DNA from: Gordonia iterans
GTDB taxonomy: Bacteria; Actinomycetota; Actinomycetes; Mycobacteriales; Mycobacteriaceae
DNA length: 64,000 nt
Reading direction: 5' to 3'
Assembly (NCBI RefSeq): GCF_002993285.1
Contig: NZ_CP027433.1
Location: forward strand, 1,364,001-1,428,000
Shown: positions 44,769-64,000 of the stretch, piece after piece
How the letters are laid out: the number at the start of each line of letters is the position of its first letter
Position numbering within the stretch: the first letter of the stretch is position 1
Notes under the pieces: generated by a model
The model's database searches: none
What the model was told of the DNA's origin: nothing
Seen by the model: the letters and a program-made list of their open reading frames with translations, nothing else
Made by a program: the position numbers and the translations under genes

Positions 44769-45082
44769 TGAGAAGCGGTCGCGGCGCTGACACGTCCACC
44801 CGGGGTAGATTCGTACATGCGGTCGCTTCGTTGAGGTTAGTGAATGTTCGTCGCCACCGCAGCGGTGGATGTGTGTCCGGCGTCCTGGACGCCAGCTTCG
44901 ACTGAGTGCGTGGGCCTTCGGGGTCCACGCACTCCAGCGAAATATTTGTAGTAGTGAATTTTGGTAATACCGCAAGAACTGCGATTCATATGTTCGGATG
45001 ACATCGCGATTGAGTCGACGCTGCTAGTGTGGCTTACATCACCGAACGTATCTCGACCCACTGACAACCCTGGGAGACCGCC
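44769..45082 (+). other. AT-richer promoter region of the CRISPR-cas operon
   Basis: No gene is evident in these 314 bp. Composition changes to AT-rich (AAATATTTGTAGTAGTG near 44940), marking the left edge of the CRISPR-Cas island. A candidate promoter is listed separately. Confidence 0.6.
45010..45039 (+). promoter_or_regulatory. candidate promoter of the cas operon
   Basis: TTGAGT at 45010 and TTACAT at 45034 are 18 bp apart and lie 44 bp before cas7. Both boxes are imperfect, so this is a weak call. Confidence 0.35.
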
Positions 45083-46285
45083 ATGGCAAGGCTTGAACTG
45101 GACACACTTCTCGCGGCATGCAGGCAAGGGGGCGCCGCAACCCTCACGTCTGTCACCGAACTGGCGCCAGCGGAGGGCGAGCACGGTGGAGTGGCTCCCG
45201 CACGCTTCGTGAACAGGGGTGGCGCGACGTATGCCTTCGAGAAGCGGTACGTCGACGGCGTAGCTGTCCACGTAGTCCTCATCGACTCGAAGGGATCGCA
45301 GCTCAATCGGGTAGAGCAAGAGATCGCGTGGGCGATCGCGGACGGCGTCGAGCCTCTTGCGTCCACGCCACGGGTGGCGGTCGAATACAAGGAAGGGCAC
45401 CCGACGGAGTACGACTACACCCTTCCGCACAGACTGTTTGACGGGCATATCCGGGCAGGTAGCATCGACGGAGTTCCGGTCACGCAGAACGCCGCGTATG
45501 TCGCTGCGCGCAATGCGACCACCGCTGATGCCCGCCCGATCCTCGAATTGGGGCCGACCGCTCTGGTCTTCGGTGGATGGGATTCAACGCGAAAGTCGCG
45601 GCAGGGCCGGTACCGAAGCGTGCTCACTGGTGAGATCATCGGAGTGTTGGCAGATCAGGGGGCCACGGCGACTGAGGTCCCGAAACGCGGCGGAGCCCGC
45701 GTCGACCCGGTGGCAGCAAGCGTCCGGCTGTCGGGCGCGCAGCTCAAGGAGTTGCTCGCAGATCAGGAAGCCGAGCTTTCGCCGAAGTTGATCGACAAGA
45801 TCCAGGCGGAGATCAAGGCGGCGAAGTCGGGGACGGTCTCTGCGTCGACGCTGGGTCTCGGTGCGATCCCGCCGAACCTCAACGGCCTCGGGTTGGTCGC
45901 GTGCAGCAAGATCATCCGGTCGCACGTCGTATCGTTCAGCGCGCTGCGTCAGTTGCGATTCGGAGCCGGGCCGGCCGGCGATGCCGCATGCCGAGCCCTC
46001 CTCGCGGCATACGCGCTAGCCGGGCTCGCTCGTGCCGACGCCGCTCTCGATCTGCGTGCCAACTGCAATCTGCGCGAAGCCGGGCCGACACGGGTGTCCA
46101 TCGACGGGCGTCACGGTACGAGCATCGAACTCGAACCACTGTCGATCGACGACGCTGATGGACTTCTGACCGCAGCCATCGCTGAAGCCCGTCGCACTGC
46201 TGGAATCGCGTGGGACGGCAAGGTGTTCACGGTGGTCGGCAACGACATCGTCGTCAATCACGCTGACGCCGACGCCGAGGACTGA
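45083..46285 (+). CDS. csb1: type I-G CRISPR backbone protein Cas7 (Csb1, GSU0053 family)
   Basis: The 400-residue Cas7g that polymerises along the crRNA to form the Cascade backbone. Csb1-family stretches are PARFVNRGGATYAFEKRYVD, KGSQLNRVEQEIAWAI, PHRLFDGHIRAGSIDGVPV, LVFGGWDSTRKSRQGRYRSV and ACSKIIRSHVVSFSALRQLR. It is the first gene of the cas operon, with an ATG preceded by a GGGAG site, and is separated by one base from csb2. Multiple copies per complex would be supplied by its promoter-proximal position. Confidence 0.93.
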   Translation: MARLELDTLLAACRQGGAATLTSVTELAPAEGEHGGVAPARFVNRGGATYAFEKRYVDGVAVHVVLIDSKGSQLNRVEQEIAWAIADGVEPLASTPRVAVEYKEGHPTEYDYTLPHRLFDGHIRAGSIDGVPVTQNAAYVAARNATTADARPILELGPTALVFGGWDSTRKSRQGRYRSVLTGEIIGVLADQGATATEVPKRGGARVDPVAASVRLSGAQLKELLADQEAELSPKLIDKIQAEIKAAKSGTVSASTLGLGAIPPNLNGLGLVACSKIIRSHVVSFSALRQLRFGAGPAGDAACRALLAAYALAGLARADAALDLRANCNLREAGPTRVSIDGRHGTSIELEPLSIDDADGLLTAAIAEARRTAGIAWDGKVFTVVGNDIVVNHADADAED

Positions 46286-46286
46286 C

Positions 46287-47849
46287 ATGGCTGTTGTGGG
46301 AATACGCGCGAGCTTCCCGCTGGGCGTGTACCGAGGCCATACCGCGGGCGAACGACATGATCTGCTGCCATCTCCTCTGCGACTCCATTCCGCTCTCGTG
46401 GCGGCCGCGGGCAATGGTTCTTCTGCGGTGCCGAAGTCGGGTGGATTGCGTCGTGTCGAGTCGTCCGAACGTGCACTCCAATGGCTGGAGGACAATCCAC
46501 CGGAGTATGTCGAGCTCCCGGACTGGGAGACTGGTGTCTCGACAGATCGGCCGTACGCCTACATGGATGAGGGTGTGGTCGAGAATGTCAACACGGACCC
46601 GTCAAGGCGGAAGTCGACTCGGTTCGTCGCGGACTCGACGGCGCTCGCCGGTCCGATCGGTTGGGGTTGGGATTCAATTCCCGAAGAGATTGCCTCCTCC
46701 CTCGACGAACTGTGCGCCGACGTGCCGTGCCTCGGGGAGACGGAGTCTCCGGTCGTGCTCGAGGTCCGTGAGATCGAACCGACGCATCGCCGTTCGCGGT
46801 CGGAGAGCCCGTTCGCTTCGGTCGCCATCAGGCTGAGCGTTCCCTCGGCCGGTCGGACCGACGAACTCGACTCGCTGTACGAACGCGCGCAGCCAGCACG
46901 GACGCCGTCGGTGTCGGGGGACAAGTGGAAAAGCACAGAGAAGCCGCTTGCGCCCCGGATCACGCACGATTGCGCGATTCACCTCGGCTATGACCGGCTC
47001 GATGACGATCCGCAGGACCAGGAAGCTCCGGCACCGTGGGAACACCTCGTCCACATTGCCGTCGACAAGCACATCGAGGCGCCTCACCGAGTGCAATGGG
47101 CAGTCGCGATGCATCGTGCGCTCGTCGCCGCTCTGGGGACGGAGGCCAACTCGGCGGTCACCGGACGCTACCCGGAGGGCGCGCGACGGCCCGCGAATCG
47201 TGTGGCGATCCAATACGTCGACGAGACGTCGATGCAGTTGTCCAGCCACGCCGAACTCGGGCCAGGGTTCGCGTTGCTGGTCTCGGACGACGCGCTAGCC
47301 GAGGTCGCTCCCATTGTCGACCTGGTGCGTCGTCTCTATCGCGGTGGCGTGGGCGAGATCCGGCTCGGACATCGAACGCTTCTGGAGGCGAGCACGTTCT
47401 GGGAGACTCCAGCCGAGGGCGCCCGCAGATTGTGGTGCTCGGCGGCGGTAGTTCCCGAGACACGTCGACAGAAGGCGGTCGAGGGACGGAAATGGACACT
47501 CGGCGATTCCGCGCTGCTGTCCGTCGGGTTCGTGTATCGAGACCGACTCGGAAAACCGTCGCAAGGTCCCGCAGGCGCGCGGTATAGAGAGATCGTCGAT
47601 CGCGTCCAAGCGACGGGAGCGGCGGTGATTCAGGCGTCGCCGATCCCGGACTCGAACGTGGGCCGGTATGCCCACAAGGTGCCTGAAGGGGTCGTCGTGC
47701 AGCCGTACCAGCTGATTCTCGCGCCAGGGTCTCTTGTCGACGAGAGGGGACTCGTCGCGCTCGGGCAGAGTCGGCATCTCGGTGGCGGACTTCTCGTACC
47801 GATGGACGTGGAGCCCGCGGTCGCCGACATTCTCGGAGCAGGACGATGA
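46287..47849 (+). CDS. csb2: type I-G Cas5-Cas6 fusion (Csb2)
   Basis: A 520-residue fusion characteristic of type I-G. The N-terminal part (IRASFPLGVYRGHTAGERHD, LLPSPLRLHSALVAAAG) is the Cas5-like RAMP that caps the crRNA 5' handle. The C-terminal part is Cas6-like, with a glycine-rich loop SRHLGGGLLVPMDVEP near residues 495-510. It is expected to cleave the repeat RNA. Its natural target here is the 9-bp hairpin in each repeat. Its end overlaps cas3 by four bases. Confidence 0.92.
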   Translation: MAVVGIRASFPLGVYRGHTAGERHDLLPSPLRLHSALVAAAGNGSSAVPKSGGLRRVESSERALQWLEDNPPEYVELPDWETGVSTDRPYAYMDEGVVENVNTDPSRRKSTRFVADSTALAGPIGWGWDSIPEEIASSLDELCADVPCLGETESPVVLEVREIEPTHRRSRSESPFASVAIRLSVPSAGRTDELDSLYERAQPARTPSVSGDKWKSTEKPLAPRITHDCAIHLGYDRLDDDPQDQEAPAPWEHLVHIAVDKHIEAPHRVQWAVAMHRALVAALGTEANSAVTGRYPEGARRPANRVAIQYVDETSMQLSSHAELGPGFALLVSDDALAEVAPIVDLVRRLYRGGVGEIRLGHRTLLEASTFWETPAEGARRLWCSAAVVPETRRQKAVEGRKWTLGDSALLSVGFVYRDRLGKPSQGPAGARYREIVDRVQATGAAVIQASPIPDSNVGRYAHKVPEGVVVQPYQLILAPGSLVDERGLVALGQSRHLGGGLLVPMDVEPAVADILGAGR

Positions 47850-50566
47850 GCGAACTCAGTCTGGACGACTTCCCGGCATTCTTCTCCGAAGTCAACGGTT
47901 TTCCCCCGTTCCAGTGGCAATCGCGACTTTGCCGGTACATCGTCGAGAACGGTCGCTGGCCGGACGCGATCAACGCTCCGACCGGATCTGGGAAGTCGAG
48001 CGTCGTCGACGTCCACCTGTTCGTCAACGCGCTGGACGGCGTTGGTGTCGGACCTCGAGTTCCTCGCCGCCTGGCAGTGGTAGTCGGTAGGCGAGCGATC
48101 GTCGATTCCCACTACGGACATGCCTCGGAGACTGTCCTGACGTCGTTGAGGACGGCGCCTCCGGAATCGATTACTGAGCGTGTTTCGGCTGGACTCCAGG
48201 CGTTGAGTACCGTGGCGGACGTCGCGAAACCGTTTCAGTCGAGCATCCTGCGCGGCGGTATGCCGAGGGATTCCAACTGGATCGATGACCCCGCGGCCTG
48301 CGCCGTGATCTGCGCGACTCCGGACATGTTCGGCAGTCGTCTGCTCTTCGGCGGGTACGGCTCGTCGCGGAATGCTTGGCCTCGCGAGGCAGGAGCCCTC
48401 GCGCGCGACACCGTCATGGTGCTCGACGAGGCGCACCTGAACGAACAACTGCTGATCTCCACACGCCGAGTTCGCGACCTGCAGTCGGCCGACGGCATCG
48501 CGATTCCGGCGGTCCAGGTCGTGGCGACCACTGCGACACCGACGGCAGAAGAACAAGAGGTGGTCGGCGTCACACCTGACGACCTTCTTATCGATACGGT
48601 TCTTCGTGATCGGCTGCAGAAGCCCAAGCCGGTACAACTGGTTGCGAGTGAGCACTGGCCGGGAGCCCGGAGACCGTCGCGAAACTACGCGAAGCAGATC
48701 GCTGGTCTCGTCAGGAAGCAGGTCGCGGAGCGCGATGGTGATGGAACTGTGGGGTGCATAGTCAACTCGGTGTTCACGGCTCGCGAAGTCGCACGTGCGC
48801 TCGGGGCCGAACTCGGTCCGGAAGCAGTCATTCTGTGGGTGGGTCCCATGCGCCCTCTTGACTTGCGCGAACAGCAAGAGCGTCATCCCAGGGCGTTCAC
48901 CGTCGATGGAGACCCCGATGTTCGCGTAATCGTGGCGACACAGACACTCGAAGTCGGAGTGGATGTGGATCTCGCGGCCCTGGTCACCGAACTCGCTCCT
49001 GGCTCCGCCATCGCCCAGCGAGCGGGCCGGGTTAACCGACTCGGCCGGCGTGATTCCGGGCCGTGTGTCGTCGTCGTGCCGGAGGTCGCGCCGACGGCGG
49101 GCAGCGGACCCTATGAACAGGATGAACTCACCGAATCGTTCGAATGGCTGCAGCGCAGAGCTGATGACCCCAGCGGCCTGGCACCCGTGCAGATCCAGAT
49201 CGATTCGGCACCTCAGGGAGCTCGATGTCGTGCCGTGCTCTCCCGGATCGAACTCGGAGACGTGCAGGCGTTCAGCTCGACGTCGGAGGAGCAGATCGCT
49301 GCCGTCGACCTTGATCGCTGGATACGGGACGACCTCTCGGCTGAGCCGGCCGGCGTCGGTCTGGTGCGGCGTGGGCCGCTGCCTATCGACGACCTCGACG
49401 CCCTCGCGCTTCTACGCGCCACTCCGGTGTCTCCCGACGAGGTGTATCCGGTTGGTATCGGAACGGCCCGAGAGGTGGTCGATCAGGTGATTCGGCGCGC
49501 GAAGGCACCGTACGCGCGCGTGTTCCTGCGTCGGGCCGGGCAACTCGACGTCGTGGACCTCAGCGATGATCAGATCGACATTCGACCCGGGGATGTCCTC
49601 ATTGTCGACGCCTCACATCCCATCGTCGACAACCGGCTGATCGTGGCGAAGGACGGCGAGTCATCGGACGCCACGGTCTGGGGCCCACCGGAGAGCGTAG
49701 AGGTCTATGTCGACGGTCATGATCCCGATTGGGTCGTCTTACGTGATCTGACGTCGGCTGTCAGGGATGCGATTGAAGATCGACCTGACGGGGAGACCGA
49801 GGAACAGGCGACACAGCGTGCTATGGATGCTTTCGTCGAGGATCTTGGTGAGGCGGGGGAGCTACGCGTCTCAGCGGCGCGTCTGAAGGTGACCGCTCCG
49901 CCGCTGCCGGAGGACGCCGGTCAGCGGTTGGCGTGGGTGGTGATCGCCGATGCGGATCCGGACCGGTCGGACGACGAGTCGCGCCAGTCGTGGACCGGCA
50001 CCGCGGTCCTCCTGTCGTCGCACCAAGAGGATGTCGCTGCCAGAGCGAGGGAGTTGGGCAACCGGCTCGGACTGTCTTCGTATCTCGTCGATGCCCTGGA
50101 ACGGGCTGGCAGGTTCCACGACGAAGGCAAGCGACACTCCGGATTCCAGGAGATTCTTGGCGGCGACTCAAACCGCGTTCTTGCGAAGAGCGCAGGTCGG
50201 GACGCCGGTGAGCCGAAGCGGCGACGATCACGCGTGAACTTGGCGCGGGGATGGCGACATGAGCAGTTGTCGGTCGTATATGCGTCTGCTGAGCTCGAAT
50301 CGGACGATCCGGAGTTCAGGGATCTGGTGCTGAGGTTGATCGGTTCGAGTCATGGGCGCGGCCGATCGGGATTCGTGCACTCCGCTGACGAAGTCCTGTC
50401 CGGTGAAACGCCGGAACTCATGTCAGTTGCGCGCGGATTGTTCGACGAAGGGGGCTGGGAAGAACTCATGGACCTGACTGAACGCCGATGGGGAACGTGG
50501 GAGTGCGCCTACTTGGAAGCTATTCTGAGGGCTGCGGACTGCATGGTCTCGAAGGAGGGGGCATGA
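47846..50566 (+). CDS. cas3: type I-G Cas3 helicase-nuclease with C-terminal HD domain
   Basis: The 906-residue effector that unwinds and degrades target DNA. The SF2 helicase comes first: Walker A APTGSGKS with Lys50, motif II D194-E-A-H197, motif III-type VATTATPTAE, and motif VI-like SAIAQRAGRVNRLGRR. The HD phosphohydrolase is C-terminal, with His758-Asp759 in RAGRFHDEGKRHSGFQ and further His residues downstream. Helicase-then-HD order is a hallmark of type I-G, opposite to most Cas3 proteins. It overlaps csb2 and cas8 at ATGA-type junctions. Confidence 0.94.
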   Translation: MSELSLDDFPAFFSEVNGFPPFQWQSRLCRYIVENGRWPDAINAPTGSGKSSVVDVHLFVNALDGVGVGPRVPRRLAVVVGRRAIVDSHYGHASETVLTSLRTAPPESITERVSAGLQALSTVADVAKPFQSSILRGGMPRDSNWIDDPAACAVICATPDMFGSRLLFGGYGSSRNAWPREAGALARDTVMVLDEAHLNEQLLISTRRVRDLQSADGIAIPAVQVVATTATPTAEEQEVVGVTPDDLLIDTVLRDRLQKPKPVQLVASEHWPGARRPSRNYAKQIAGLVRKQVAERDGDGTVGCIVNSVFTAREVARALGAELGPEAVILWVGPMRPLDLREQQERHPRAFTVDGDPDVRVIVATQTLEVGVDVDLAALVTELAPGSAIAQRAGRVNRLGRRDSGPCVVVVPEVAPTAGSGPYEQDELTESFEWLQRRADDPSGLAPVQIQIDSAPQGARCRAVLSRIELGDVQAFSSTSEEQIAAVDLDRWIRDDLSAEPAGVGLVRRGPLPIDDLDALALLRATPVSPDEVYPVGIGTAREVVDQVIRRAKAPYARVFLRRAGQLDVVDLSDDQIDIRPGDVLIVDASHPIVDNRLIVAKDGESSDATVWGPPESVEVYVDGHDPDWVVLRDLTSAVRDAIEDRPDGETEEQATQRAMDAFVEDLGEAGELRVSAARLKVTAPPLPEDAGQRLAWVVIADADPDRSDDESRQSWTGTAVLLSSHQEDVAARARELGNRLGLSSYLVDALERAGRFHDEGKRHSGFQEILGGDSNRVLAKSAGRDAGEPKRRRSRVNLARGWRHEQLSVVYASAELESDDPEFRDLVLRLIGSSHGRGRSGFVHSADEVLSGETPELMSVARGLFDEGGWEELMDLTERRWGTWECAYLEAILRAADCMVSKEGA

Positions 50567-51588
50567 CCGAGATCGTGATCGGAGGGTCGCATACCTCGGC
50601 CCTAACACACTTCGCAAGCTTCGGTATTATCGCGATTCTCGAGGAGGCTGGGCACCGGAGTCTGCGTCTACGCTGGCGTGACGAATCGAACCCAGCGCCG
50701 ACGGTGTCTGGGCCAACGGTGGACATGGACGTGCTGGCTCAGTCGGTGGTGGCGCACGCTAGCCGTCACGCAGCGCCGGATTCATGGGTGCAAGCTAGAA
50801 CGTTCATCCAGAAGGGTTCGAAGAAGTCTGAGATCGGACTGTTCAGTCCCCGGATTGCTGCTCCGGAGAGCCTCGAGGCTTGGGCAGCGCTATTCGACCA
50901 ACGTCGATCAGTCATTGACGCGAACTCGGATTTTACCTGGCTTGACGGCCAGATGCTCCAGGCGTTGGGCGAGCCGGGATACTGGCAGGCTGGTGAGAAG
51001 GACGCGTTGCCGGACCAAGGTGCGTCGCGGTGGGAGATGAAGACGCGGAACCGTGGTGAGGACTTCACTCGGAATCGCCTCGCGCCGATGGCGATCGAGC
51101 TATCCGGACGCGACGCGAGCGCGGTGGCAAGTTCTTTGGCCGGTGACATCGTCCAGGATTCGGCGGGCAAGCTCGACTCCCGGACCGGCACCGGGCTAGT
51201 GCCTCCGCAACCAGTCGATGATGCAGTTGCCTGGTGCGCGTTGTGGGGAATCAGCGCATTTCGCTTGTATCCGCGTCTCGATGGCGTAGCAGTGACGCCT
51301 GGAGCATGGCCGACGAATATCACTCATCCGCGCCTGATGGCTGTGCCGATGTCGACAACTCCGATTTCGTTGGCGAAGATCCGTCGGATTGTCAGATCGA
51401 AGTCGTTCTCTGACGCGGTATTCGGCGAACGAACAACGGACGGAGCTTGGAGCATTCTCCTGTCCGCCGCCCGGTACGAGCTTCGGCGTTCGGGGCTGCG
51501 CGGCGCCGTCGTTTTTCCGATCAGGAAGGGTGGCAGCAGTTCGGCACCCGAAAGGCAAGTTCTCACCGGCGTCTTCGAGCCCTTCTAA
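50563..51588 (+). CDS. type I-G small Cas8-like subunit (Csb3/Cas8g-like)
   Basis: A 341-residue protein in the position of the large subunit: EIVIGGSHTSALTHFASFGI, ILEEAGHRSLRLRWRDESNP, NRLAPMAIELSG, WCALWGISAFRLYPRLDG. It is shorter than Csx17 (roughly 700 residues) and fits the Csb3/Cas8u2 size class. It should contact the PAM and recruit Cas3; no zinc-finger cysteines are visible. ATG 50563 overlaps the cas3 stop. The assignment rests on position, length and weak motif resemblance. Confidence 0.8.
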   Translation: MTEIVIGGSHTSALTHFASFGIIAILEEAGHRSLRLRWRDESNPAPTVSGPTVDMDVLAQSVVAHASRHAAPDSWVQARTFIQKGSKKSEIGLFSPRIAAPESLEAWAALFDQRRSVIDANSDFTWLDGQMLQALGEPGYWQAGEKDALPDQGASRWEMKTRNRGEDFTRNRLAPMAIELSGRDASAVASSLAGDIVQDSAGKLDSRTGTGLVPPQPVDDAVAWCALWGISAFRLYPRLDGVAVTPGAWPTNITHPRLMAVPMSTTPISLAKIRRIVRSKSFSDAVFGERTTDGAWSILLSAARYELRRSGLRGAVVFPIRKGGSSSAPERQVLTGVFEPF

Positions 51589-51596
51589 AGGTGAAC

Positions 51597-51614
51597 ATGG
51601 ACGGCGAGAACTGA
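51597..51614 (+). other. five-codon mini-ORF before cas4-cas1
   Basis: ATG-GAC-GGC-GAG-AAC-TGA sits directly in front of the fusion start, and CATGGACGGCG recurs 25 bp later at the real start. It is either a slipped duplication of the start region or a tiny leader that affects re-initiation. Confidence 0.3.
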
Positions 51615-51615
51615 G

Positions 51616-53232
51616 ATGGACATGGACGGCGGGAATCGAACGGAACTGCCGATCAGCCTCGTCGTGCACACGGTGTTCTGTGAGCGTCGTGCCTGGCTGG
51701 AAGCGGTCGGGGAGCGGGTCGACAGCGCGCAGATCGAGGCTGGCCTCGTTGCTCATGCTCGAGTCGATTCGCCGCGTGTGTCCCCGATCGAGTCCACATC
51801 GATGGATATTGATCACTCTGACCTGGGCATCGTGGGCAAGTGTGACGTAGTAAGGCACTTACCCGGTCGGGTTTCGATCGTCGAGTACAAGGCGACGCCG
51901 ACTCGTCGTGTTCCGGAAGTAACGGCATCCAACATCGTTCAGTTGGCCCTCCAGCGATTGTGTCTGGAGTCCGGCGGAGTCGTCATCGAGTCGCAGGAGG
52001 TGTATTTCACGAATCATCGCCGGAGCGTGTCCGTTGATCTCACAGAGTCCGACTTCGACGAGGCGCGGAAGTGGGTCGATATGACTCGTGAGATCGTCGA
52101 CCGTCAGACCGCTCCACCGCCGCTGGTTGACGATCCGCGTTGTCGCTTTTGTTCTCACGTGAGCGTGTGCCTGCCCGATGAACACCATCGAAACGAGCTC
52201 AATCATGTTCGGCGTGTAGCGGTCAGCAACCCCGGTGGTGAGGTTCTGCATTTGACCACCGCTGGGAGTCGGGCGTCGCTGAAGTCGGGGCGTGTAGTGA
52301 TTCAGAAGGCTCGTGAGGAAGTCGCCTCACTACCGGTCGAACGGGTCGTCGGACTGGTAGTGCATGGGAACGTCGACGTCTCGTCGGCGCTGATTCGTGA
52401 AATGCTGTGGCGCGGTTACGGGATCGTGTGGTGCTCGTCCAACGGTAGGGTCGTCGGACACGCGCGATCCGCGCGGACCCCCAATGGTCTGCCGCGTCTG
52501 CAGCAACATGTACGTTCCTCCGTCGGAGACATTTTCATTGCCAGGGAGATGATCGCGCCAAAGGTTGCAAATCAGGCGACACAGCTCAGGAGGTCTTCGC
52601 GTGCTGACGTTATCGAGATAGTTCGGAAGATGCGAGAAATAAGCCGGAATATAGACCAGGCGCAGAGCGTCTCCCAAATCGTTGGGTTGGAGGGTGAGGC
52701 TGCGGCATTGTATTTCCGAGAATTCGGAAGCTGTATCGCGAACGGGGCTGATCCGCTGTTCGTCGACGGCTTCGATGGTCGTGCCGGGCGAAGAGCACGT
52801 GATCCGCTGAACGCAGCTTTCAACTACGCCTACGGGTTGCTGGCCGCCGAGTGTGTCCGAGCTCTGCATGCGTGCGGTCTCGACCCTCACGCGGGCTTTG
52901 TTCACTCGGCAGTGCGGAACAAACCAGCGCTGGCTCTCGACCTCATGGAGCAGTTCCGGCCGATCATCGCCGACTCTGTAGTTCTCTCGGTGATCAATAA
53001 CGGGCAACTGACGACAGTCGACTTTCATTCGCTTCTCGGCGCGATGCGCTTGTCGACTACCGGGCGAAAGGCGATCACAAAAGAGTACGAGCGCCGAGTT
53101 TCACAGGAATTCACTCACCCTGTGTACAAGTACAAGGTGAGCTGGCGTCGTGCGATCGAGGTGCAGGCACGGATGCTGCTTGGTGTTCTCGACGGCACCG
53201 GCCACCACTACGTGGGCATCCGGACCCGATGA
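51616..53232 (+). CDS. cas4-cas1: Cas4-Cas1 fusion (adaptation nuclease-integrase)
   Basis: A 538-residue fusion typical of type I-G that selects, trims and integrates new spacers with Cas2. Cas4 part (about 1-190): cluster cysteines Cys22, Cys176, Cys179 and Cys185 and the nuclease segment GKCDVVRHLPGRVSIVEYKA (D and E-x-K). Cas1 part: metal residues Glu359 in GLEGEAAALYF, His430 in GFVHSA and Glu445 in LDLMEQFRP. All catalytic residues are present, so adaptation is probably functional. Alternative in-frame ATG is at 51622. It overlaps cas2. Confidence 0.95.
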   Translation: MDMDGGNRTELPISLVVHTVFCERRAWLEAVGERVDSAQIEAGLVAHARVDSPRVSPIESTSMDIDHSDLGIVGKCDVVRHLPGRVSIVEYKATPTRRVPEVTASNIVQLALQRLCLESGGVVIESQEVYFTNHRRSVSVDLTESDFDEARKWVDMTREIVDRQTAPPPLVDDPRCRFCSHVSVCLPDEHHRNELNHVRRVAVSNPGGEVLHLTTAGSRASLKSGRVVIQKAREEVASLPVERVVGLVVHGNVDVSSALIREMLWRGYGIVWCSSNGRVVGHARSARTPNGLPRLQQHVRSSVGDIFIAREMIAPKVANQATQLRRSSRADVIEIVRKMREISRNIDQAQSVSQIVGLEGEAAALYFREFGSCIANGADPLFVDGFDGRAGRRARDPLNAAFNYAYGLLAAECVRALHACGLDPHAGFVHSAVRNKPALALDLMEQFRPIIADSVVLSVINNGQLTTVDFHSLLGAMRLSTTGRKAITKEYERRVSQEFTHPVYKYKVSWRRAIEVQARMLLGVLDGTGHHYVGIRTR

Positions 53233-53528
53233 CTGCTCGGCTGTCACGGTTATTGGTCGCTTACGATATCGTCGACGACCGGAGGCGGACGCGACTTGCT
53301 AATATCCTTCAGTCCTTTGGTGATCGGATCCAGTTCAGTGTGTTCCTGGTTGATGTTACCGATGCACAAGAAGTCAGGATGCGTGCCAAGGTGAATGCAG
53401 AAATTGATGGCCGAGTTGATTCGGTTCTGTTCTGCAGACTTGGACCCACGGCGACGACAGGAAGCACGTCCATCACTTACTTGGGCTGTCGCCGGACTAC
53501 TACCGACGACACAGACTTCGTCGTATAA
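53229..53528 (+). CDS. cas2: Cas2
   Basis: The 99-residue structural partner of Cas1, forming the dimer that bridges two Cas1 dimers. Features are the N-terminal strand RLLVAYDIVDDRRRTRLANI with the conserved Asp, and FGDRIQFSVFLVDVTDAQEV. The ATG overlaps the Cas4-Cas1 stop. The C-terminus is normal length. The array follows after only 75 bp. Confidence 0.93.
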   Translation: MTARLSRLLVAYDIVDDRRRTRLANILQSFGDRIQFSVFLVDVTDAQEVRMRAKVNAEIDGRVDSVLFCRLGPTATTGSTSITYLGCRRTTTDDTDFVV

Positions 53529-53603
53529 TTTCCGGCTTCGGATGGGGAGTCAGGTCAGCGCTCCGGCAAGGTCGTGGCGCTGGGCTTGACCTACTCCTGT
53601 CGC
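53529..53603 (+). promoter_or_regulatory. CRISPR leader
   Basis: The 75 bp between cas2 and the first repeat should hold the array promoter and integration signals. It is short and not strongly AT-rich. Orientation with cas genes upstream and perfect repeats at this end support new spacers entering here. Confidence 0.7.
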
Positions 53604-54517
53604 GCCTCAACGAAGGTCGACGACCGAAGTCGTCGACGGGACCCGACGATCTAGAAGCTGGCACCCTGGCGTGGGGCAAGCCTCAACGAAGGTCGACGAC
53701 CGAAGTCGTCGACGGCACCAGCCGACATAGCGCGCTTCACAAGGCGCACCGTAAGCCTCAACGAAGGTCGACGACCGAAGTCGTCGACGGCCCACGTCTC
53801 CCCCACCACAGGTTTTTCGCTAAAGGGAGGCCTCAACGAAGGTCGACGACCGAAGTCGTCGACGGGACGCCATCAGATCGGAGACGTCCTCCCACGAGGC
53901 CTCAACGAAGGTCGACGACCGAAGTCGTCGACGGTCCTCGTACTTGCGTTTCCGCTCGGCCTGCAACTTCTCGCCTCAACGAAGGTCGACGACCGAAGTC
54001 GTCGACGGGCGCTGGAAAGTCCGCAGCGTGACGCCCTCCTCGAAGCCTCAACGAAGGTCGACGACCGAAGTCGTCGACGGGTCGGTGCAGCCGGCGATCT
54101 CGCATGCCTTCTGCGGCCCGCCTCAACGAAGGTCGACGACCGAAGTCGTCGACGGATGATTGGCACGTCTCGCCGCAGTACGTACGTCAGGCCTCAACGA
54201 AGGTCGACGACCGAAGTCGTCGACGGCTTCCGGAGGAGCCGTACACCATCAGGTTGAGGGCCTCAACGAAGGTCGACGACCGAAGTCGTCGACGGGAGGT
54301 GCCGCGCAGGGTGGCGACCAGCCGGCCCGTATCCGCCTCAACGAAGGTCGACGACCGAAGTCGTCGACGGACAGGCCGGAAGGAGTCATCCGCGGCACGC
54401 TCCGCCTCGCCTCAACGAAGGTCGACGACCGAAGTCGTCGACGGGCGCGAAGTTGTCGTGCGCTGTGAGGTGGATGTTCTGGCCTCAACGAAGGTCGACG
54501 ACCGAAGTCGTCGACGG

Positions 54518-54559
54518 ACGGAAATGCCCACCCGTAGGCGCAGACGGCATATAGCGGGC
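54518..54559 (+). repeat. duplicated spacer, first copy (42 bp)
   Basis: This spacer, starting ACGGAAATGCCCACCCG, is identical over all 42 bp to the next spacer at 54596-54637. At 42 bp they are the longest spacers I measured. Confidence 0.95.
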
Positions 54560-54595
54560 GCCTCAACGAAGGTCGACGACCGAAGTCGTCGACGG

Positions 54596-54637
54596 ACGGA
54601 AATGCCCACCCGTAGGCGCAGACGGCATATAGCGGGC
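54596..54637 (+). repeat. duplicated spacer, second copy (42 bp)
   Basis: Exact copy of 54518-54559, separated by one repeat. A repeat-spacer unit duplication by recombination or slippage is the simplest cause; independent capture of the same 42 bp is less likely. Confidence 0.95.
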
Positions 54638-57600
54638 GCCTCAACGAAGGTCGACGACCGAAGTCGTCGACGGATGACGGGGCGTTCACGCTTAGGCGCT
54701 TTCGCCTGGCCTCAACGAAGGTCGACGACCGAAGTCGTCGACGGGGCACCACACAGCTATCGCACGCCCCGACTCAGCCGTGCCTCAACGAAGGTCGACG
54801 ACCGAAGTCGTCGACGGCAGGCCGCTAGTGGTGCGCTAGTGTGGGTATTACCAAGCCTCAACGAAGGTCGACGACCGAAGTCGTCGACGGAAGCTCTGCC
54901 AATGTCTCCGCAGTAAGCGGCATACGGCCTCAACGAAGGTCGACGACCGAAGTCGTCGACGGCCTCCCCTGCACTGAACCGGATCGGCTCAGTGCCGCCC
55001 GCCTCAACGAAGGTCGACGACCGAAGTCGTCGACGGACGACGAGGACTCGTGCGGCCTGCTCCTCGGAGACGAGCCTCAACGAAGGTCGACGACCGAAGT
55101 CGTCGACGGCTGTCGGACGCCCGCGACGACGAGACCGGTGCCCGGCCTCAACGAAGGTCGACGACCGAAGTCGTCGACGGGTAAGCGGCGTACGGTATCC
55201 GCTGATCGAGTAATCGCCTCAACGAAGGTCGACGACCGAAGTCGTCGACGGCTGGGCTACGCGATATGCCTGGCAAGCGGTCCCCTACTTGCCTCAACGA
55301 AGGTCGACGACCGAAGTCGTCGACGGCCTCCAACGCCCGCCGAGTCTCATCATGGACCAGCCCGCCTCAACTAAGGTCGACGACCGAAGTCGTCGACGGA
55401 CCCGCGATGAGCACGGCACGGTGATCATGGAGACCTTGCCTCAACGAAGGTCGACGACCGAAGTCGTCGACGGCGCCGAATTGCTTGGCGTGCCGCACAG
55501 TGAAATTGCCGAGCCTCAACGAAGGTCGACGACCGAAGTCGTCGACGGCCGCACCTCATGGTGGGCGTATCCGTGCTCACCCTCCAGGCCTCAACGAAGG
55601 TCGACGACCGAAGTCGTCGACGGTACTACGTAAGTAATGACCTTGCGTACGACGTTATGCCTCAACGAAGGTCGACGACCGAAGTCGTCGACGGGCGTAG
55701 TCTTCCAAGAATCGGGCGACCGGTACCTCATGGCCTCAACGAAGGTCGACGACCGAAGTCGTCGACGGGCGAATGTGGGGAGCGGGCCGATGAACGAGTT
55801 CGGCCTCAACGAAGGTCGACGACCGAAGTCGTCGACGGACCTACGGCGATGACGTTCTAGGAATGGACCTTACCGGAGCCTCAACGAAGGTCGACGACCG
55901 AAGTCGTCGACGGTTGACCAGTCCTGGTGTCAGGTCGGGATACTTTTGGCCTCAACGAAGGTCGACGACCGAAGTCGTCGACGGCGGCCTGAGATTGTCC
56001 TGAAAGCACGTGAGACTCAATGACGCCTCAACGAAGGTCGACGACCGAAGTCGTCGACGGCACCCACACCTACCGACTCACCCCCGGCGAGTACGGGCCT
56101 CAACGAAGGTCGACGACCGAAGTCGTCGACGGCCTGTACACCACGGGGCCGAGACTATGAACCCCGCCCCTGCCTCAACGAAGGTCGACGACCGAAGTCG
56201 TCGACGGTCACGACGTCATCGGACGGCGAGACGGTGTGGTTCCCGGCCTCAACGAAGGTCGACGACCGAAGTCGTCGACGGGAGCAGTTCGCGGCGTCGG
56301 TTGAGTTTGGAGGGTTCACGCCTCAACGAAGGTCGACGACCGAAGTCGTCGACGGCTGGAAGCCGAGGCGGGTGAGACCCGATGAGCATTCGCCTCAACG
56401 AAGGTCGACGACCGAAGTCGTCGACGGGGTAGGCTACCGGCCGCCGGAGCTTCGCGGACAGGAGCGCCTCAACGAAGGTCGACGACCGAAGTCGTCGACG
56501 GACCACCCCGTCCGCGTCATCCCCCTCGCGTGTTTCGCCTCAACGAAGGTCGACGACCGAAGTCGTCGACGGCGCTATCGGAGTGCTCACGGTTACCCCG
56601 CGAGGTGAGAGCCTCAACGAAGGTCGACGACCGAAGTCGTCGACGGTCGAATGCGTCCGGGCAGATGGGCGGCGTTTTTCTGCTGCCTCAACGAAGGTCG
56701 ACGACCGAAGTCGTCGACGGTCAGCGCTATCGTAGACGCGTACGATCAGTGGGCGGGGGAGCCTCAACGAAGGTCGACGACCGAAGTCGTCGACGGTGAG
56801 CCGCATGGGACGGCTGTATGACGACACGTTCATGCCTCAACGAAGGTCGACGACCGAAGTCGTCGACGGCGCTCACGCCACCGATTCCGGAGCCGAGTCA
56901 TCCGGTCGCCTCAACGAAGGTCGACGACCGAAGTCGTCGACGGCGGATGGCTCACCGACGACGGCCACATCTGCCCCGTCTGGCCTCAACGAAGGTCGAC
57001 GACCGAAGTCGTCGACGGGGGTGTTGAAGCCGGGCGGCCATATGGCCGTGTTCGCCGGGCCTCAACGAAGGTCGACGACCGAAGTCGTCGACGGGGCTTC
57101 CGTAATTGATCTGACGACCGCTCCATATCAAGCCTCAACGAAGGTCGACGACCGAAGTCGTCGACGGCACCCAGCGCGCCGCAATCTGGGCTGACACCGG
57201 TCTCGGCCTCAACGAAGGTCGACGACCGAAGTCGTCGACGGCCTTGTCAACGATCTAATCGGGATCATTGAGACGCCTCAACGAAGGTCGACGACCGAAG
57301 TCGTCGACGGTTCCGTCGGCGGCGCTAGCAGGTTCTTCCCGGTGTTCAAGCCTCAACGAAGGTCGACGACCGAAGTCGTCGACGGCGGGTGCGGCCCCGA
57401 GAAGCGTCTCGCGATCAGCGGATGCCTCAACGAAGGTCGACGACCGAAGTCGTCGACGGACACTCTGCCTTCGCCCTCGACGAGCTCGATGTCGCCTCAA
57501 CGAAGGTCGACGACCGAAGTCGTCGACGGGCTCCAAACGCTCCGGCTCCATACCGGCCTGTTGGCCTCAACGAAGGTCGACGACCGAAGTCGTCGACGGT

Positions 57601-60600
57601 GGATGCTGCTGCGACGTCGGCGGGTGACGCGGCGGCGGCGCCTCAACGAAGGTCGACGACCGAAGTCGTCGACGGCACGCTGGAACTGGAGCGGGAGCTG
57701 CGCACCGTGCCTCAACGAAGGTCGACGACCGAAGTCGTCGACGGCCCAACGCATTCAGCGCCGCCGGGTCAAGGGATGGCGCCTCAACGAAGGTCGACGA
57801 CCGAAGTCGTCGACGGCGCCCTCGGTGTTGCCTGGCGGTGTTGCCTACAGCCGATTGCCTCAACGAAGGTCGACGACCGAAGTCGTCGACGGGGCGTCGC
57901 CAGGGGCCTCAGCACGCTCTCGGCTTTCAGGCCTCAACGAAGGTCGACGACCGAAGTCGTCGACGGGCGGGGCGATCTCCGATGAGCGTGCGTGTCGACC
58001 GGCCTCAACGAAGGTCGACGACCGAAGTCGTCGACGGCCGGCGAGCCGTTCGCGCTCGTCTCCGGCCTCGCCGTCCCGCCTCAACGAAGGTCGACGACCG
58101 AAGTCGTCGACGGCGGGCCGGTCGACCCGACCCTGCGGTGGCCGCACCCGATGCCTCAACGAAGGTCGACGACCGAAGTCGTCGACGGCCACACCGACAC
58201 GGTCACCGACCGCCGGGATCGCGCCTCAACGAAGGTCGACGACCGAAGTCGTCGACGGAGAGCGCCGCGCAAGGGGGAGGCCCCAGTGCGAGCGCGCCTC
58301 AACGAAGGTCGACGACCGAAGTCGTCGACGGCAGCGCGTTCATCGCCAAGGATGGAGCGTTGTTGTAGGCGCCTCAACGAAGGTCGACGACCGAAGTCGT
58401 CGACGGAGGCATGGCCGACAGTGCGGTGCGTAGTTTCCGTGTGCCTCAACGAAGGTCGACGACCGAAGTCGTCGACGGGTGCGCACCGAGGCGCAGGAGT
58501 CCCTGCCCCCGAACGAGCCTCAACGAAGGTCGACGACCGAAGTCGTCGACGGACCACCACCCTTGACGTGCGTTACGCCGAACCGCTCGAAGCCTCAACG
58601 AAGGTCGACGACCGAAGTCGTCGACGGAGCGACATCACTGAACTGGTCGCGATCACCCTAGCCGTGCCTCAACGAAGGTCGACGACCGAAGTCGTCGACG
58701 GGTGTGCTTGCTGCGGCCTGCGCTGTCGATGGTCCAGGTGCCTCAACGAAGGTCGACGACCGAAGTCGTCGACGGTCCCGCATCGCCTTCACGATCTGGC
58801 GGGCCGCCGACGTGCCTCAACGAAGGTCGACGACCGAAGTCGTCGACGGGGGGCGTTCGACAGGTCCCGGTCGTTGGAGCTGTACTGGCCTCAACGAAGG
58901 TCGACGACCGAAGTCGTCGACGGCCTCCGGCTCGGCCCCGCGGCCGATGAAGAATGCGGCGGCCTCAACGAAGGTCGACGACCGAAGTCGTCGACGGATC
59001 GGCTGGGCCGGGAACGAGGACGTGTCGACCTCGGGGCCTCAACGAAGGTCGACGACCGAAGTCGTCGACGGCCCAATCCGTCTTCGGGGTGAGCTTGATC
59101 TGCTTGTCCAGGCCTCAACGAAGGTCGACGACCGAAGTCGTCGACGGCTCAAGCACCTCGACCAGGACCGGTTGACGAAGGCCGCGCCTCAACGAAGGTC
59201 GACGACCGAAGTCGTCGACGGTCTGCGAAAGAAGCTCACCCTCGGGGCAGGCTATCTCGCCTCAACGAAGGTCGACGACCGAAGTCGTCGACGGTTCGCC
59301 GCCGAAACAGCAGTACCCGCCGCCGACACCGCCGCCTCAACGAAGGTCGACGACCGAAGTCGTCGACGGCAGACACGGTGCGAGCAGGTTGCACCGCACT
59401 ATCAGCCGCCTCAACGAAGGTCGACGACCGAAGTCGTCGACGGCAGTATGAATCTGCCCTGGCCAACGGGTGTGACATCTGCCTCAACGAAGGTCGACGA
59501 CCGAAGTCGTCGACGGTGCTGGATCCATGCGGAGACGGCATGCTCGGTGATCGCCTCAACGAAGGTCGACGACCGAAGTCGTCGACGGATCTGCGTCGTC
59601 GTCGCCGAGAGACCGACCCGCGCACTGCGCCTCAACGAAGGTCGACGACCGAAGTCGTCGACGGTTTAAGGGTGGTAAGCAGCAATCCCTGGATGGTCGC
59701 CTCAACGAAGGTCGACGACCGAAGTCGTCGACGGCGGATTGACTGGAACGTCGCCGCGTTCAAGGCGATCAGGCCTCAACGAAGGTCGACGACCGAAGTC
59801 GTCGACGGATGTACGCCACCGAGCACGTCGCCCAGTTGCCCGTCTGGCCTCAACGAAGGTCGACGACCGAAGTCGTCGACGGTAGTGCCGGTAATGAAGA
59901 TCCTCGAAGACTCGTTCTCGCCTCAACGAAGGTCGACGACCGAAGTCGTCGACGGCACGGCCACATGAGTCCGCAGGCCACGCACTGGGTCTGGCCTCAA
60001 CGAAGGTCGACGACCGAAGTCGTCGACGGGATCAGCCACGGCTCGCCATTCGTCACGCCGAAGCGGCCTCAACGAAGGTCGACGACCGAAGTCGTCGACG
60101 GCCTTGCCGAGGTCTGGTTCGTCGGCGAGCGACGAGTGGACGCCTCAACGAAGGTCGACGACCGAAGTCGTCGACGGTCGCGTGATCAGCGGCAGCGAGC
60201 ACTGTTGGGGGGCCTGCCTCAACGAAGGTCGACGACCGAAGTCGTCGACGGTCCGGGTACGCCGGTGACACCCGAGACGCAATCGCGCCTCAACGAAGGT
60301 CGACGACCGAAGTCGTCGACGGTTGTGGCGACCGGTGCATGGCGATTCGGTGTCGGCGGCCAGCCTCAACGAAGGTCGACGACCGAAGTCGTCGACGGGT
60401 GCGTCGAAGAACGACAACGGGAACTACATCGAGGAGCCTCAACGAAGGTCGACGACCGAAGTCGTCGACGGGTGCCGTCCTCGTTGTCCTCGATCTCGGG
60501 TTCAACGCCTCAACGAAGGTCGACGACCGAAGTCGTCGACGGGGGTCAACATCCGTTCGTGGTGTCGGGGTTCGCGCCTCAACGAAGGTCGACGACCGAA

Positions 60601-61553
60601 GTCGTCGACGGCCTCGACCAGACGGAGGCTCGCTCGGTCACTTCCCCTGAGCCTCAACGAAGGTCGACGACCGAAGTCGTCGACGGCTGCTGACCTGCCT
60701 GATCTCGGGCGGATCCCAGAGGCCTCAACGAAGGTCGACGACCGAAGTCGTCGACGGATCCCGTGCCGCCTGCGCCTGAGCCACCACCGCCGGGTCGCCT
60801 CAACGAAGGTCGACGACCGAAGTCGTCGACGGTTGCCTCGCTTCAATTCTGGTGGCGAGTTGGACGGCCTCAACGAAGGTCGACGACCGAAGTCGTCGAC
60901 GGGCCGCCGGAACCCGCCTGTCCAGGACGCGCTCCAGCAGTCGCCTCAACGAAGGTCGACGACCGAAGTCGTCGACGGTTCGGTGCTGGTCATACTGCGT
61001 TCTCTCTCAGCCTCAACGAAGGTCGACGACCGAAGTCGTCGACGGCTTGCTGGCGAGGTGCCCGAGGTCGGCGGCGATGCCTCAACGAAGGTCGACGACC
61101 GAAGTCGTCGACGGTCTAGCTTGGCTTGCAGCTGCTCGACGTGCCGGGCCGTGCCTCAACGAAGGTCGACGACCGAAGTCGTCGACGGGCTTTCCGTGCT
61201 TGGTGATGATGGTCCGCTCCCCCTTGCCTCAACGAAGGTCGACGACCGAAGTCGTCGACGGGCCCGCGATCCCCGTCGTCATCACCGGCTTGGCGCTGCC
61301 TCAACGAAGGTCGACGACCGAAGTCGTCGACGGGCCCGTACGTCGTCTATCTGGACGGTGACCTCACGGGGGCCTCAACGAAGGTCGACGACCGAAGTCG
61401 TCGACGGAGGCGTGCACCTTGACCGGCCAACGCTCGGATGATGTGGCCTCAACGAAGGTCGACGACCGAAGTCGTCGACGGGCGAGGTACCCCCAGGGAT
61501 TGTGCATGCGGTGAAAGGCCTCAACGAAGGTCGACGACCGAAGTCGTCGACGG

Positions 61554-61609
61554 AGCCCCTCGATTCTATACTCCGTGACCTGCGGAGACCACGTTGACTG
61601 CGAGGGGCT
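61554..61609 (+). terminator. structured flank after the last repeat
   Basis: AGCCCCTCG (61554-61562) and CGAGGGGCT (61601-61609) pair across 38 nt that include a small CTCCG/CGGAG hairpin (61571-61587). Its position directly after the last repeat suggests termination of the crRNA precursor. Confidence 0.5.
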
Positions 61610-62036
61610 TCCTCGACACACTGAGCGGTGCGGCCCTCTGGCGGACTGGTCAATCTCTGCGGAGCTCTCATCAGTGCAGATGTGCCGCGAGACGTGGCCC
61701 GGTTGGGGTGGGTGTGGTGACCTCTCGCGTCGTGTCGAGAGCTGCGCAGTCTTTCAACACCGTTCAGTCATTGACTGAGACCGGTGTAGCTCGGCGGTCC
61801 GGATCGCTGGTGCCAGATGGCGTGGTTGGCTCGCTCGCGTGCCTCTTGGTGTACTTGCGTTCGACGACACGCGGCATGCTCCGGGTGCGTCTGCGCGGGT
61901 TGAGACGGGCAGCGAGGTGACGGAGAACGGTGTGCCAGCTGCGCTCGCAGGCTTCAGGGAGTTGTCAGGCACGAAGTCGCCCTAGCTGGTTCGAGGCGCA
62001 GCGTCGCGTCGAGAGGGTGCAGAATGCATGCATCGT
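61610..62036. other. non-coding stretch between CRISPR flank and toxin-antitoxin pair
   Basis: Some 430 bp without a convincing gene. An open frame at 61594-61920 has poor codon use and no homology that I recognise. A palindromic ATGCATGCAT lies at 62024-62033, just before the antitoxin operator. Confidence 0.5.
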
Positions 62037-62049
62037 GGCTATTCTAGCC
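62037..62049. promoter_or_regulatory. antitoxin operator / -10 overlap
   Basis: GGCTA and TAGCC flank TTC three bases before the antitoxin start. TATTCT inside it can act as -10, so antitoxin binding would block RNA polymerase. The very short leader is consistent with a nearly leaderless transcript. Confidence 0.55.
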
Positions 62050-62051
62050 GT

Positions 62052-62294
62052 ATGAGCAGGGTGATCCAGGTTCGCGGGCTTGCGGACGAGACGCACGACG
62101 CGCTGGTGCGCGCGGCGGGGGCGCGGGGAATGTCGCTCTCGCAGTACTTGCGGGGTGAGCTCGAGGCCATCGCCCGGCGAGCGGAGGTGAGCAGACGCAA
62201 CCTCGAGGTGGTGCGAGTAACCCAGTCCGCGGTCGGAACCACGGTCAGTCGCGACGACATCTTGTCCGCTCTGACAGCAGGCCGGCGCGAGTGA
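62052..62294 (+). CDS. vapB: FitA/VapB-type ribbon-helix-helix antitoxin
   Basis: An 80-residue antitoxin with an N-terminal Arc-like RHH (SRVIQVRGLADETHDALVRA, GMSLSQYLRGELEAIA). A C-terminal tail (RDDILSALTAGRRE) would wrap the toxin active site. The ATG at 62052 is preferred over a start at 62028, which lies upstream of the operator. It overlaps the toxin's GTG start by four bases, the usual antitoxin-first coupling. Confidence 0.88.
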   Translation: MSRVIQVRGLADETHDALVRAAGARGMSLSQYLRGELEAIARRAEVSRRNLEVVRVTQSAVGTTVSRDDILSALTAGRRE

Positions 62295-62671
62295 AGGTCG
62301 TCGATGCAGGCGTCATTGTCGAATTGCTCCTGGGCGGCCTTTCCCCGGATGCCCTCGGAATCAACGAACTCGCCGTTCCGCACCTGATCGACTGCGAGGT
62401 GCTCAGCGTGCTGCGGACGTTGGAGCGTCGGCAACGGATCACTGCGCTACAGGCCGACTATGCCGAACGCGGATTCACAGCGATGTCGCTGACGAGGTAT
62501 CCGATGGACTGGTTGCGGTCACGAATCTGGGAACTACGTCACAATCTGTCTGCGTACGATGCCGCTTACGTGGCCCTGGCAGAGTTTCTCGATGCAGGGT
62601 CGCTGCTGACGACCGACGCGCGGCTCGCACGTGCTCCAGGCGTTCGGTGTGGTGTCGAGCTCCTGTCGTGA
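62291..62671 (+). CDS. vapC: VapC-family PIN-domain toxin ribonuclease
   Basis: A 126-residue PIN nuclease. Acidic residues for Mg2+ are Asp5 (VVDAGVIVELL), Glu36 (IDCEVLSVLR), Asp90 (SAYDAAYVALA) and Asp109 (LLTTDARL). VapC toxins cleave tRNA or rRNA when released from VapB. It starts with GTG 62291. The pair sits 0.7 kb past the CRISPR array, where it may stabilise the island; that link is inference. Confidence 0.9.
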   Translation: MKVVDAGVIVELLLGGLSPDALGINELAVPHLIDCEVLSVLRTLERRQRITALQADYAERGFTAMSLTRYPMDWLRSRIWELRHNLSAYDAAYVALAEFLDAGSLLTTDARLARAPGVRCGVELLS

Positions 62672-62722
62672 CATCGTCGCTTGCGTGGGGCGGTGCGGGG
62701 TGCAGTGCGGGCGGGGACGACG

Positions 62723-64000
62723 ATGACTGGCAGCGAACCGGTGCGAGGCGTGCTTGCCTGCGACGGTGCGCACGTACAGTGCCACGAGTGCGGCGACTGG
62801 TACCGGTCGCTGACCACTCACATCCGGCTCGCGCACGGCATGTCCGACGACGAGTACCGCTACGAGTGGGATCTTCCGGCGGCGACCAGGCTCGCCAGCG
62901 ACGACGTCCGGAACACGGCTCGGGCCAACGCGATGCAGCGTGTCGATCGGGCTGGCCCGCTGGCGGTCCCGCGCTTCCTTCCCGGCACCTACGTCGAGGG
63001 CGGGGCGGTGGCCGCCGAGTACGATGACCGGGCGCGGAGGCTCTGGACGGAGCGGCTGCAAGCTGCCGGGTGGGCGTCGTGGGAGGCGGCGGTGGACTGG
63101 GCGGTGGAGCACGACAAGACGTGGTCCGACATCGCCGCGAGACTGGGCATCACCCATCAGCAGGCGAGGACGGTGGGCATGGCCCACGGCGTGGTGCTTC
63201 CCCCGTTGTGGCAGCGGATGGTCGTCGTCGCACGGGACCATGTCGACAGGTACGGCACGCTGCTGAATACGACGGGGCGGTTGTCGGCGTGGCTGAGCCG
63301 GACGCGGCACGAGTCGAAGACCAAACGCTTGCCACGGCGTGCGGTAGCTGCGCTCGACCGGCTCGACCCCGACTGGCGGCTCGATCGCGAAGCGCGTCGT
63401 GGGGCGATGCGGCGACGCAAGGTCGCCAACGGACACCAGGTGTCCTCGTTCCGCACGTTCGACGCTCAGGTGCGCGCAGCGGGCTTCGAGGGGGCGGCCG
63501 GGCTGTTGCGGCACGGCATCGTCGAGCATCTGGGGCCGTCGGAGCTCGGCGACCTGGTCGGGGTGCGCGGCGATTCGTTGCTGAAACGCATGACCGTCGG
63601 TAATCCGGAGAACCCGTTCGATGCGACAGAAGAACTGTGCAGCAGCGTCTTCGGCATGCTCGACGACGACGGCTCGCGTGTGCAGTGCCATGAGTGCGGG
63701 CTGTGGTTCGGGGTGCTCTATCGCCACCTGACCTGGCACACCGGCGACGACGGCGGTCCGCTGAGCGCGGAGGCGTACCGGAAGCGACACGGTCTGCCGG
63801 CGGATCTGCCGCTGCGGAGCGACGGCGCCCCCGAGACGCTGTCCGGCCAATGGGATGCGCACCTGCAGGAGGCGGGGTTCGCGTCGTGGGAGGACGCCCT
63901 CGCGGCGATGGCGCAGGACCATCTCGGTCTTTCCGAACTGGGCGAGCGGCTCGGTGTGCGCGGTGACGCGCTGCCCGCCGTGCTCGCGAGAGAGGCGCCC
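62723..64000 (+). CDS. modular DNA-binding protein with two MucR-like zinc fingers (partial)
   Basis: At least 426 residues, open to the window edge. Zinc finger 1: Cys20-x2-Cys23-x9-His33-x4-His38, followed by GMSDDEYRYEWDLP, matching the MucR/Ros finger plus its downstream helix. Zinc finger 2: Cys322-x2-Cys325-x9-His335-x3-His339, then AYRKRHGLP. Between them are helix-turn-helix-like blocks (WASWEAAVDWAVEHDKTWSD, IAARLGI; then LGPSELGDLVGVRGDSLLK) and a helicase-associated-like segment, GRLSAWLSRTRHESKTKRLP then RRAVAALDRLDPDW. A further block repeats the first (FASWEDALAAMAQDHLGLSE). I know no family with this order. ATG 62723 follows a GGGGACGAC stretch. Confidence 0.75.
   Translation, partial: MTGSEPVRGVLACDGAHVQCHECGDWYRSLTTHIRLAHGMSDDEYRYEWDLPAATRLASDDVRNTARANAMQRVDRAGPLAVPRFLPGTYVEGGAVAAEYDDRARRLWTERLQAAGWASWEAAVDWAVEHDKTWSDIAARLGITHQQARTVGMAHGVVLPPLWQRMVVVARDHVDRYGTLLNTTGRLSAWLSRTRHESKTKRLPRRAVAALDRLDPDWRLDREARRGAMRRRKVANGHQVSSFRTFDAQVRAAGFEGAAGLLRHGIVEHLGPSELGDLVGVRGDSLLKRMTVGNPENPFDATEELCSSVFGMLDDDGSRVQCHECGLWFGVLYRHLTWHTGDDGGPLSAEAYRKRHGLPADLPLRSDGAPETLSGQWDAHLQEAGFASWEDALAAMAQDHLGLSELGERLGVRGDALPAVLAREAP

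Follow-up and report, generated by a model that had tools for sequence, protein, structure and literature searches.

Proteins of the Ros/MucR family (PF05443) are small and carry a single zinc finger together with an N-terminal oligomerisation domain. Members are described from alpha-proteobacteria (PMC11662661, PMC6250670), and PMC7283297 agrees with small, single-finger proteins. Here we describe a gene at the edge of a 64,000-nucleotide stretch of Gordonia iterans DNA (the window; bases 1364001-1428000 of a one-contig 4.0-Mb genome, NZ_CP027433.1) in which several fingers of this type alternate with helix-turn-helix (HTH) blocks. Judged by repeat comparison, its intact homologues in the genus are built mainly through tandem duplication of a cassette of ~132 residues, while the G. 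iterans copy is broken within its third finger module. The protein is best read as a new version of a known finger type and a putative accessory modular DNA-binding protein, and we found no paper on such a finger/HTH array in titles and abstract starts, most subscription journals being outside reach.

Alternating fingers and HTH blocks

A sequence-only reading of the window had proposed an open frame at 62723-64000 of the forward strand in which two MucR-like fingers are joined with several HTH-like blocks and a helicase-associated-type segment. The frame, opening with the ATG at 62723, crosses the window edge and runs on to a stop at genome position 1428219, giving an open reading frame (ORF) of 498 residues. 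Antisense frames over 62723-64000 are likewise open, as is common at 68% G+C, and the + frame is backed by 59-60% amino-acid identity to the Gordonia alkaliphila homologue with a pN/pS of 0.50.

The 498-residue ORF matches the Pfam model ROS_MUCR (PF05443) with an E-value of 3.1e-16 (60 bits vs a cut-off of 25.4), and the two CxxC...H...H fingers inside the window start at residues 20 and 322, bearing out the proposed pair. Another finger starts at residue 453 and three more follow in a second part beyond the frame break; leaving finger 1 aside, successive fingers of the same part start 131-132 residues from each other. The module order before the break is finger 1, HTH block T1, a helicase-associated (HA)-like segment, T2-finger 2 and T3-finger 3, and three T-finger repeats stand after it; three HTH-type blocks thus fall within the window portion (Table 1), in agreement with the proposal. 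Structure prediction gave a finger, a probable HTH fold and a three-helix bundle (AlphaFold2 model of the G. alkaliphila homologue and a model of a sister unit).

Compared with the DNA-binding domain of Ros (PDB 2jsp, E 8.5e-5), the finger shares the CxxC-x9-H-x3-H pattern followed by LTxExYRxRHGL in register, as well as predicted strands and two helices; the PF05443 score and the 2jsp alignment both identify a Ros-type C2H2 finger with a C-terminal YRxxWGL-like extension. By contrast with the small one-finger family members, the Gordonia proteins alternate three to six fingers with HTH blocks, and the intact homologues reach 640 residues in G. alkaliphila and 755 in G. effusa. The fingers were compared in 12 of 13 Gordonia cases, as the search pattern did not capture one finger that has an additional residue. 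All 12 share both Cys, the first His and H, E, G and W in the CHECGxW motif, and helix positions x1, x2 and x3 and the residue preceding the His are variable (entropy 2.0-2.6 bits).

The helicase-associated-type segment stands in part. Residues 163-215 align to positions 5-63 of the 64-position Helicase associated domain profile (PF03457; E 3.3e-4), three helices are predicted there, and the equivalent segment of G. alkaliphila gives a similar match (E 7.8e-4, 20.1 bits). However, the label 'helicase-associated-like' is weak by sequence because the score of 21.3 bits is under the Pfam cut-off of 28.4 and no match is listed for the Gordonia effusa homologue at E up to 0.1. The segment is the most basic region of the protein (+12 over residues 155-250), and no helicase domain was found in the finger protein. 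As had been expected, no known family covers the full length in Pfam, NCBIfam, PHROGs or PADLOC; a Foldseek search with the complete model was likewise empty at E up to 0.001. The top PDB match of an HTH-only profile, 8vd6 (E 5.1e-11), was set aside as a designed helical repeat.

Table 1. Features of the multi-finger gene and its neighbours (window positions unless stated otherwise)
Feature	Position	Strand	Basis or remark
5' part of multi-finger gene	62723..64000	+	start ATG, MTGSEPVRG...; frame goes on past window edge
Finger 1, Ros/MucR type, first Cys residue 20	62744..62896	+	profile; AlphaFold2 model of G. alkaliphila homologue
HTH block T1 (LWTERLQAAGWASWEAAVDWA...IAARLGIT)	63041..63193	+	sequence; helices 93-152 in AlphaFold2 model of G. 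alkaliphila homologue
HA-like segment (PF03457, under cut-off)	63209..63367	+	profile; three helices 160-212 in AlphaFold2 model of G. alkaliphila homologue
HTH block T2, opens first ~132-residue HTH+finger repeat	63458..63595	+	repeat comparison; predicted fold of sister unit
Finger 2, first Cys residue 322	63647..63820	+	profile, repeats; predicted fold of sister unit
HTH block T3, opens next repeat; finger 3 outside window	63848..64000	+	repeat comparison
RHH antitoxin-like gene, separate from finger gene	62028-62294	+	PF22513, under cut-off
PIN toxin-like gene, separate from finger gene	62291-62671	+	PIN E 2.5e-6
Type I-G CRISPR-Cas	45083-61560		Cas7g 45083-46282, Cas8g 50488-51585, Cas4-Cas1 fusion 51616-53229
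NADAR-domain gene	genome 1429441-1429902 (L004 10442-10903)		overlaps end of broken finger gene by 4 bases

Repeat number and frame break in Gordonia

The first part of the gene was matched in seven of 59 Gordonia genomes, of which three hold an array (the window genome, G. alkaliphila (G002, L059) and G. effusa (G012, L060)) and four hold single-finger proteins. The intact G. alkaliphila protein has four fingers (starting at residues 30, 331, 463 and 595), and that of G. effusa, encoded on a separate contig of 59% G+C, has three (274, 580 and 709); ahead of them lies an additional N-terminal stretch of ~250 residues, for which Pfam gave no match at E up to 0.01. HTH+finger repeats number two in G. 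effusa, three in G. alkaliphila and five in the broken window copy. Units 1-3 of the window genome and G. alkaliphila are positional orthologues (identity 56, 62 and 48%), and for each of units 4-6 the best counterpart in G. alkaliphila is the last unit there (57, 47 and 53%); repeat number has therefore been altered via internal duplication or loss.

After the stop at 1428219, homology resumes at once in another frame, up to a stop at genome position 1429444 (window-equivalent 65444). The ~132-residue module recurs on both sides of the break and the four-finger G. alkaliphila homologue is unbroken, which suggests that both parts derive from a single ancestral gene. The whole protein is probably not made in the window genome. 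The pN/pS is 0.50 before the break vs 0.41 and 0.53 for the comparison after it, rough figures with a high pS (0.52-0.55), and this similar constraint on both sides suggests that the break is recent.

A near-identical locus, contig C256 of genome G042 (L119; possibly a contaminant contig, as G042 has another guaA), is 98.8% identical over 2.5 kb from the finger-gene tail into guaA. There, a gene of beta-lactamase-like type that shares 95% identity with window 44208-44750 stands directly before a finger-gene remnant that has collapsed, with most modules gone and the frame lost. Because this second copy is also damaged, real decay at the break, which was seen in one assembly, is more likely than an assembly error, and the lineage of the window genome seems to be losing the finger gene by decay. 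In its broken state the gene matters less for this genome, and the interest lies in the architecture.

As a separate observation, the N-terminal segment of the G. effusa homologue (L060 2541-3300), which we take to resemble an EspR/XRE-type HTH, has a 41% identical counterpart encoded on the Gordonia plasmid NZ_CP123383.1.

DNA or protein partners

We judge the chances about even that the protein is a modular DNA-binding regulator. In the intact homologues, the tandemly duplicated cassette consists of one HTH block and one Ros/MucR-type zinc finger, and towards the N-terminus there are a further finger, a further HTH block and the helicase-associated-like three-helix segment. Most probably the domains would lie along DNA and jointly recognise a long composite site, and the protein would bind DNA in a sequence-dependent way to regulate or silence accessory DNA. 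We infer zinc binding, DNA binding and a regulatory role alike; if DNA binding is true, bacteria would have in this protein an equivalent of DNA-binding proteins with many fingers, made of Ros/MucR-type fingers. Against this, the overall charge in Gordonia is neutral to slightly acidic, with 10 of the 12 tabulated fingers net negative; such charge does not favour H-NS-like oligomeric binding and bridging of AT-rich DNA.

The same charge would suit a protein-protein scaffold or adaptor, in which fingers and HTH blocks keep their folds and bind protein partners instead of DNA. The fixed CHECGxW framework with variable helix positions fits a protein-binding repeat equally well, and the predicted structure packs an HTH block and a finger compactly together (pTM 0.84). 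However, modules of these types are similar to DNA-binding folds, basic charge marks the HA-like segment, and of four short Tsukamurella proteins that were tabulated, three have a net positive charge on fingers 1 and 2. We consider a scaffold unlikely.

These Tsukamurella proteins (WP_068739039.1 and orthologues) follow the same repeat logic, with three fingers and HTH-type blocks in between, but they are ~400 residues long, have no HA match in Pfam and are annotated as hypothetical. The relative is present in nine of 16 Tsukamurella genomes and absent in seven, and one genome has an 873-residue paralogue near the WP_068739039.1-type gene. Eight of the nine genes (one was missed by a motif filter) show purifying selection, with a dN/dS of 0.14-0.42 and invariant zinc ligands. 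At the level of order and phylum, matches are few in even samples of genomes, which are no census: at E up to 1e-8, an HTH+finger profile matched five of 397 genomes of the order (the window genome, two Tsukamurella and two over the finger only) and three of 396 of the phylum (the window genome and two partial matches). PF05443 itself is rare in the class (3/296 genomes at E up to 1e-5, window genome counted).

A variable interval before guaA

In Gordonia, a conserved block including a ~600-residue GMC-type oxidoreductase precedes guaA; two genes of the block are presumably guaB and its paralogue. The interval between oxidoreductase and guaA spans ~40 kb here (window 26916 to guaA at window-equivalent 66766) and holds Cas7g, Cas8g, the Cas4-Cas1 fusion, a long CRISPR array of ~36-base repeats ending near 61560, the RHH-PIN pair, the finger gene and NADAR. 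Regions were compared from 14 of the 58 other genomes of the genus, some of these regions being truncated by contig ends; the gap holds almost nothing in G009 and G. effusa and has other contents elsewhere. In G. alkaliphila, Wadjet-type genes (DUF3375, DUF4194/MksE, SMC-like) lie beside the finger gene, and closer to guaA come candidate type IIG, helicase and Druantia genes recognised by model matches. Between them, G044 and G. alkaliphila match models of Druantia, type IIG and defence helicases, and G014 has clustered Wadjet-gene homologues in the interval without a finger gene. The interval can be seen as a place where defence genes turn over.

Such surroundings could mean that the finger protein is a component of anti-phage or anti-plasmid defence that recognises invading DNA through its modules, and the sequence-only reading had suggested 'defence or island maintenance' from a setting beside a toxin-antitoxin (TA) pair and CRISPR. 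The adjacency itself is real (RHH-PIN at 62028-62671), and it is only the location of the gene in an interval rich in defence genes, seen in two species, that speaks for the suggestion. However, the proposed functional tie is not supported: window 44750 to 62734, which contains CRISPR-Cas and the TA pair, is missing beside the L119 remnant, the G. alkaliphila gene has Wadjet as its neighbour and the G. effusa copy lies apart on its own contig. This missing stretch on L119 indicates that the CRISPR/TA neighbourhood is unstable, and neither RHH-PIN, CRISPR, NADAR nor Wadjet is kept with the finger gene across genomes. NADAR, found in six of 59 genomes, was rejected as a functional partner on locus comparison: the window genome and G042 aside, G016, G022 and G052 have it upstream of guaA at a distance of up to ~30 kb, all three without a finger gene; in G036, NADAR and guaA are on different contigs. 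No DarT partner for NADAR (PF14487) was found in the window genome. With no effector domain found in the finger protein, PADLOC matching none of five finger-array proteins at E up to 0.01, and uvrC starting in the flank of the Tsukamurella relative in six of eight loci checked, a defence role seems improbable.

We think it equally improbable that a mobile-element protein, serving excision, partition or regulation of element genes, was stranded in the interval and is now decaying. The frame break and the collapse on L119 would agree with this, as would the G. effusa contig of 59% G+C, which carries PAPS-reductase-like, DUF3846 and HTH_31-like genes of kinds frequent on mobile elements, and the single-finger relatives found in Gordonia phage Finkle and on plasmids. 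By contrast, a scan of six other proteins from the G. effusa contig found no integrase or relaxase family, the gene is unbroken in G. alkaliphila and the Tsukamurella relatives are under constraint. Finkle gp29 shares one Ros/MucR-type finger (38% identity across 89 residues), but its ORF has no HTH+finger tandem array. Finkle was the one phage matched in the phage collection, in two records. A phage origin is unsupported: a protein query against viral contigs gave three weak matches (two in one-finger ORFs, the third in no assignable long ORF), and none of 28 pattern matches to the repeat unit in viral contigs was confirmed.

Quite doubtful is a composite DNA reader in which each HTH+finger cassette would read its own short DNA word. 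Cassettes would come and go, finger-helix positions would differ from one cassette to another over a constant zinc framework, and the length and sequence of the array would thereby define a long evolvable target, much as in eukaryotic polydactyl zinc-finger proteins.

Other Ros/MucR-type fingers were met along the way. The G036 chromosome carries a near-identical copy of the single-finger gp29 reading frame (L020 8726-10018, L016 3689-4981), which suggests a related prophage. The viral contigs L062 (7926-8891) and L063 (7905-8720) encode an N-terminal finger followed by repeats reminiscent of homing-endonuclease-associated ones. Finally, two Gordonia genomes encode identical 778-residue ORFs (L022 7656-9992, L021 1315-3651) in which two repeats, presumably AbiEi-like, are combined with one C-terminal finger.
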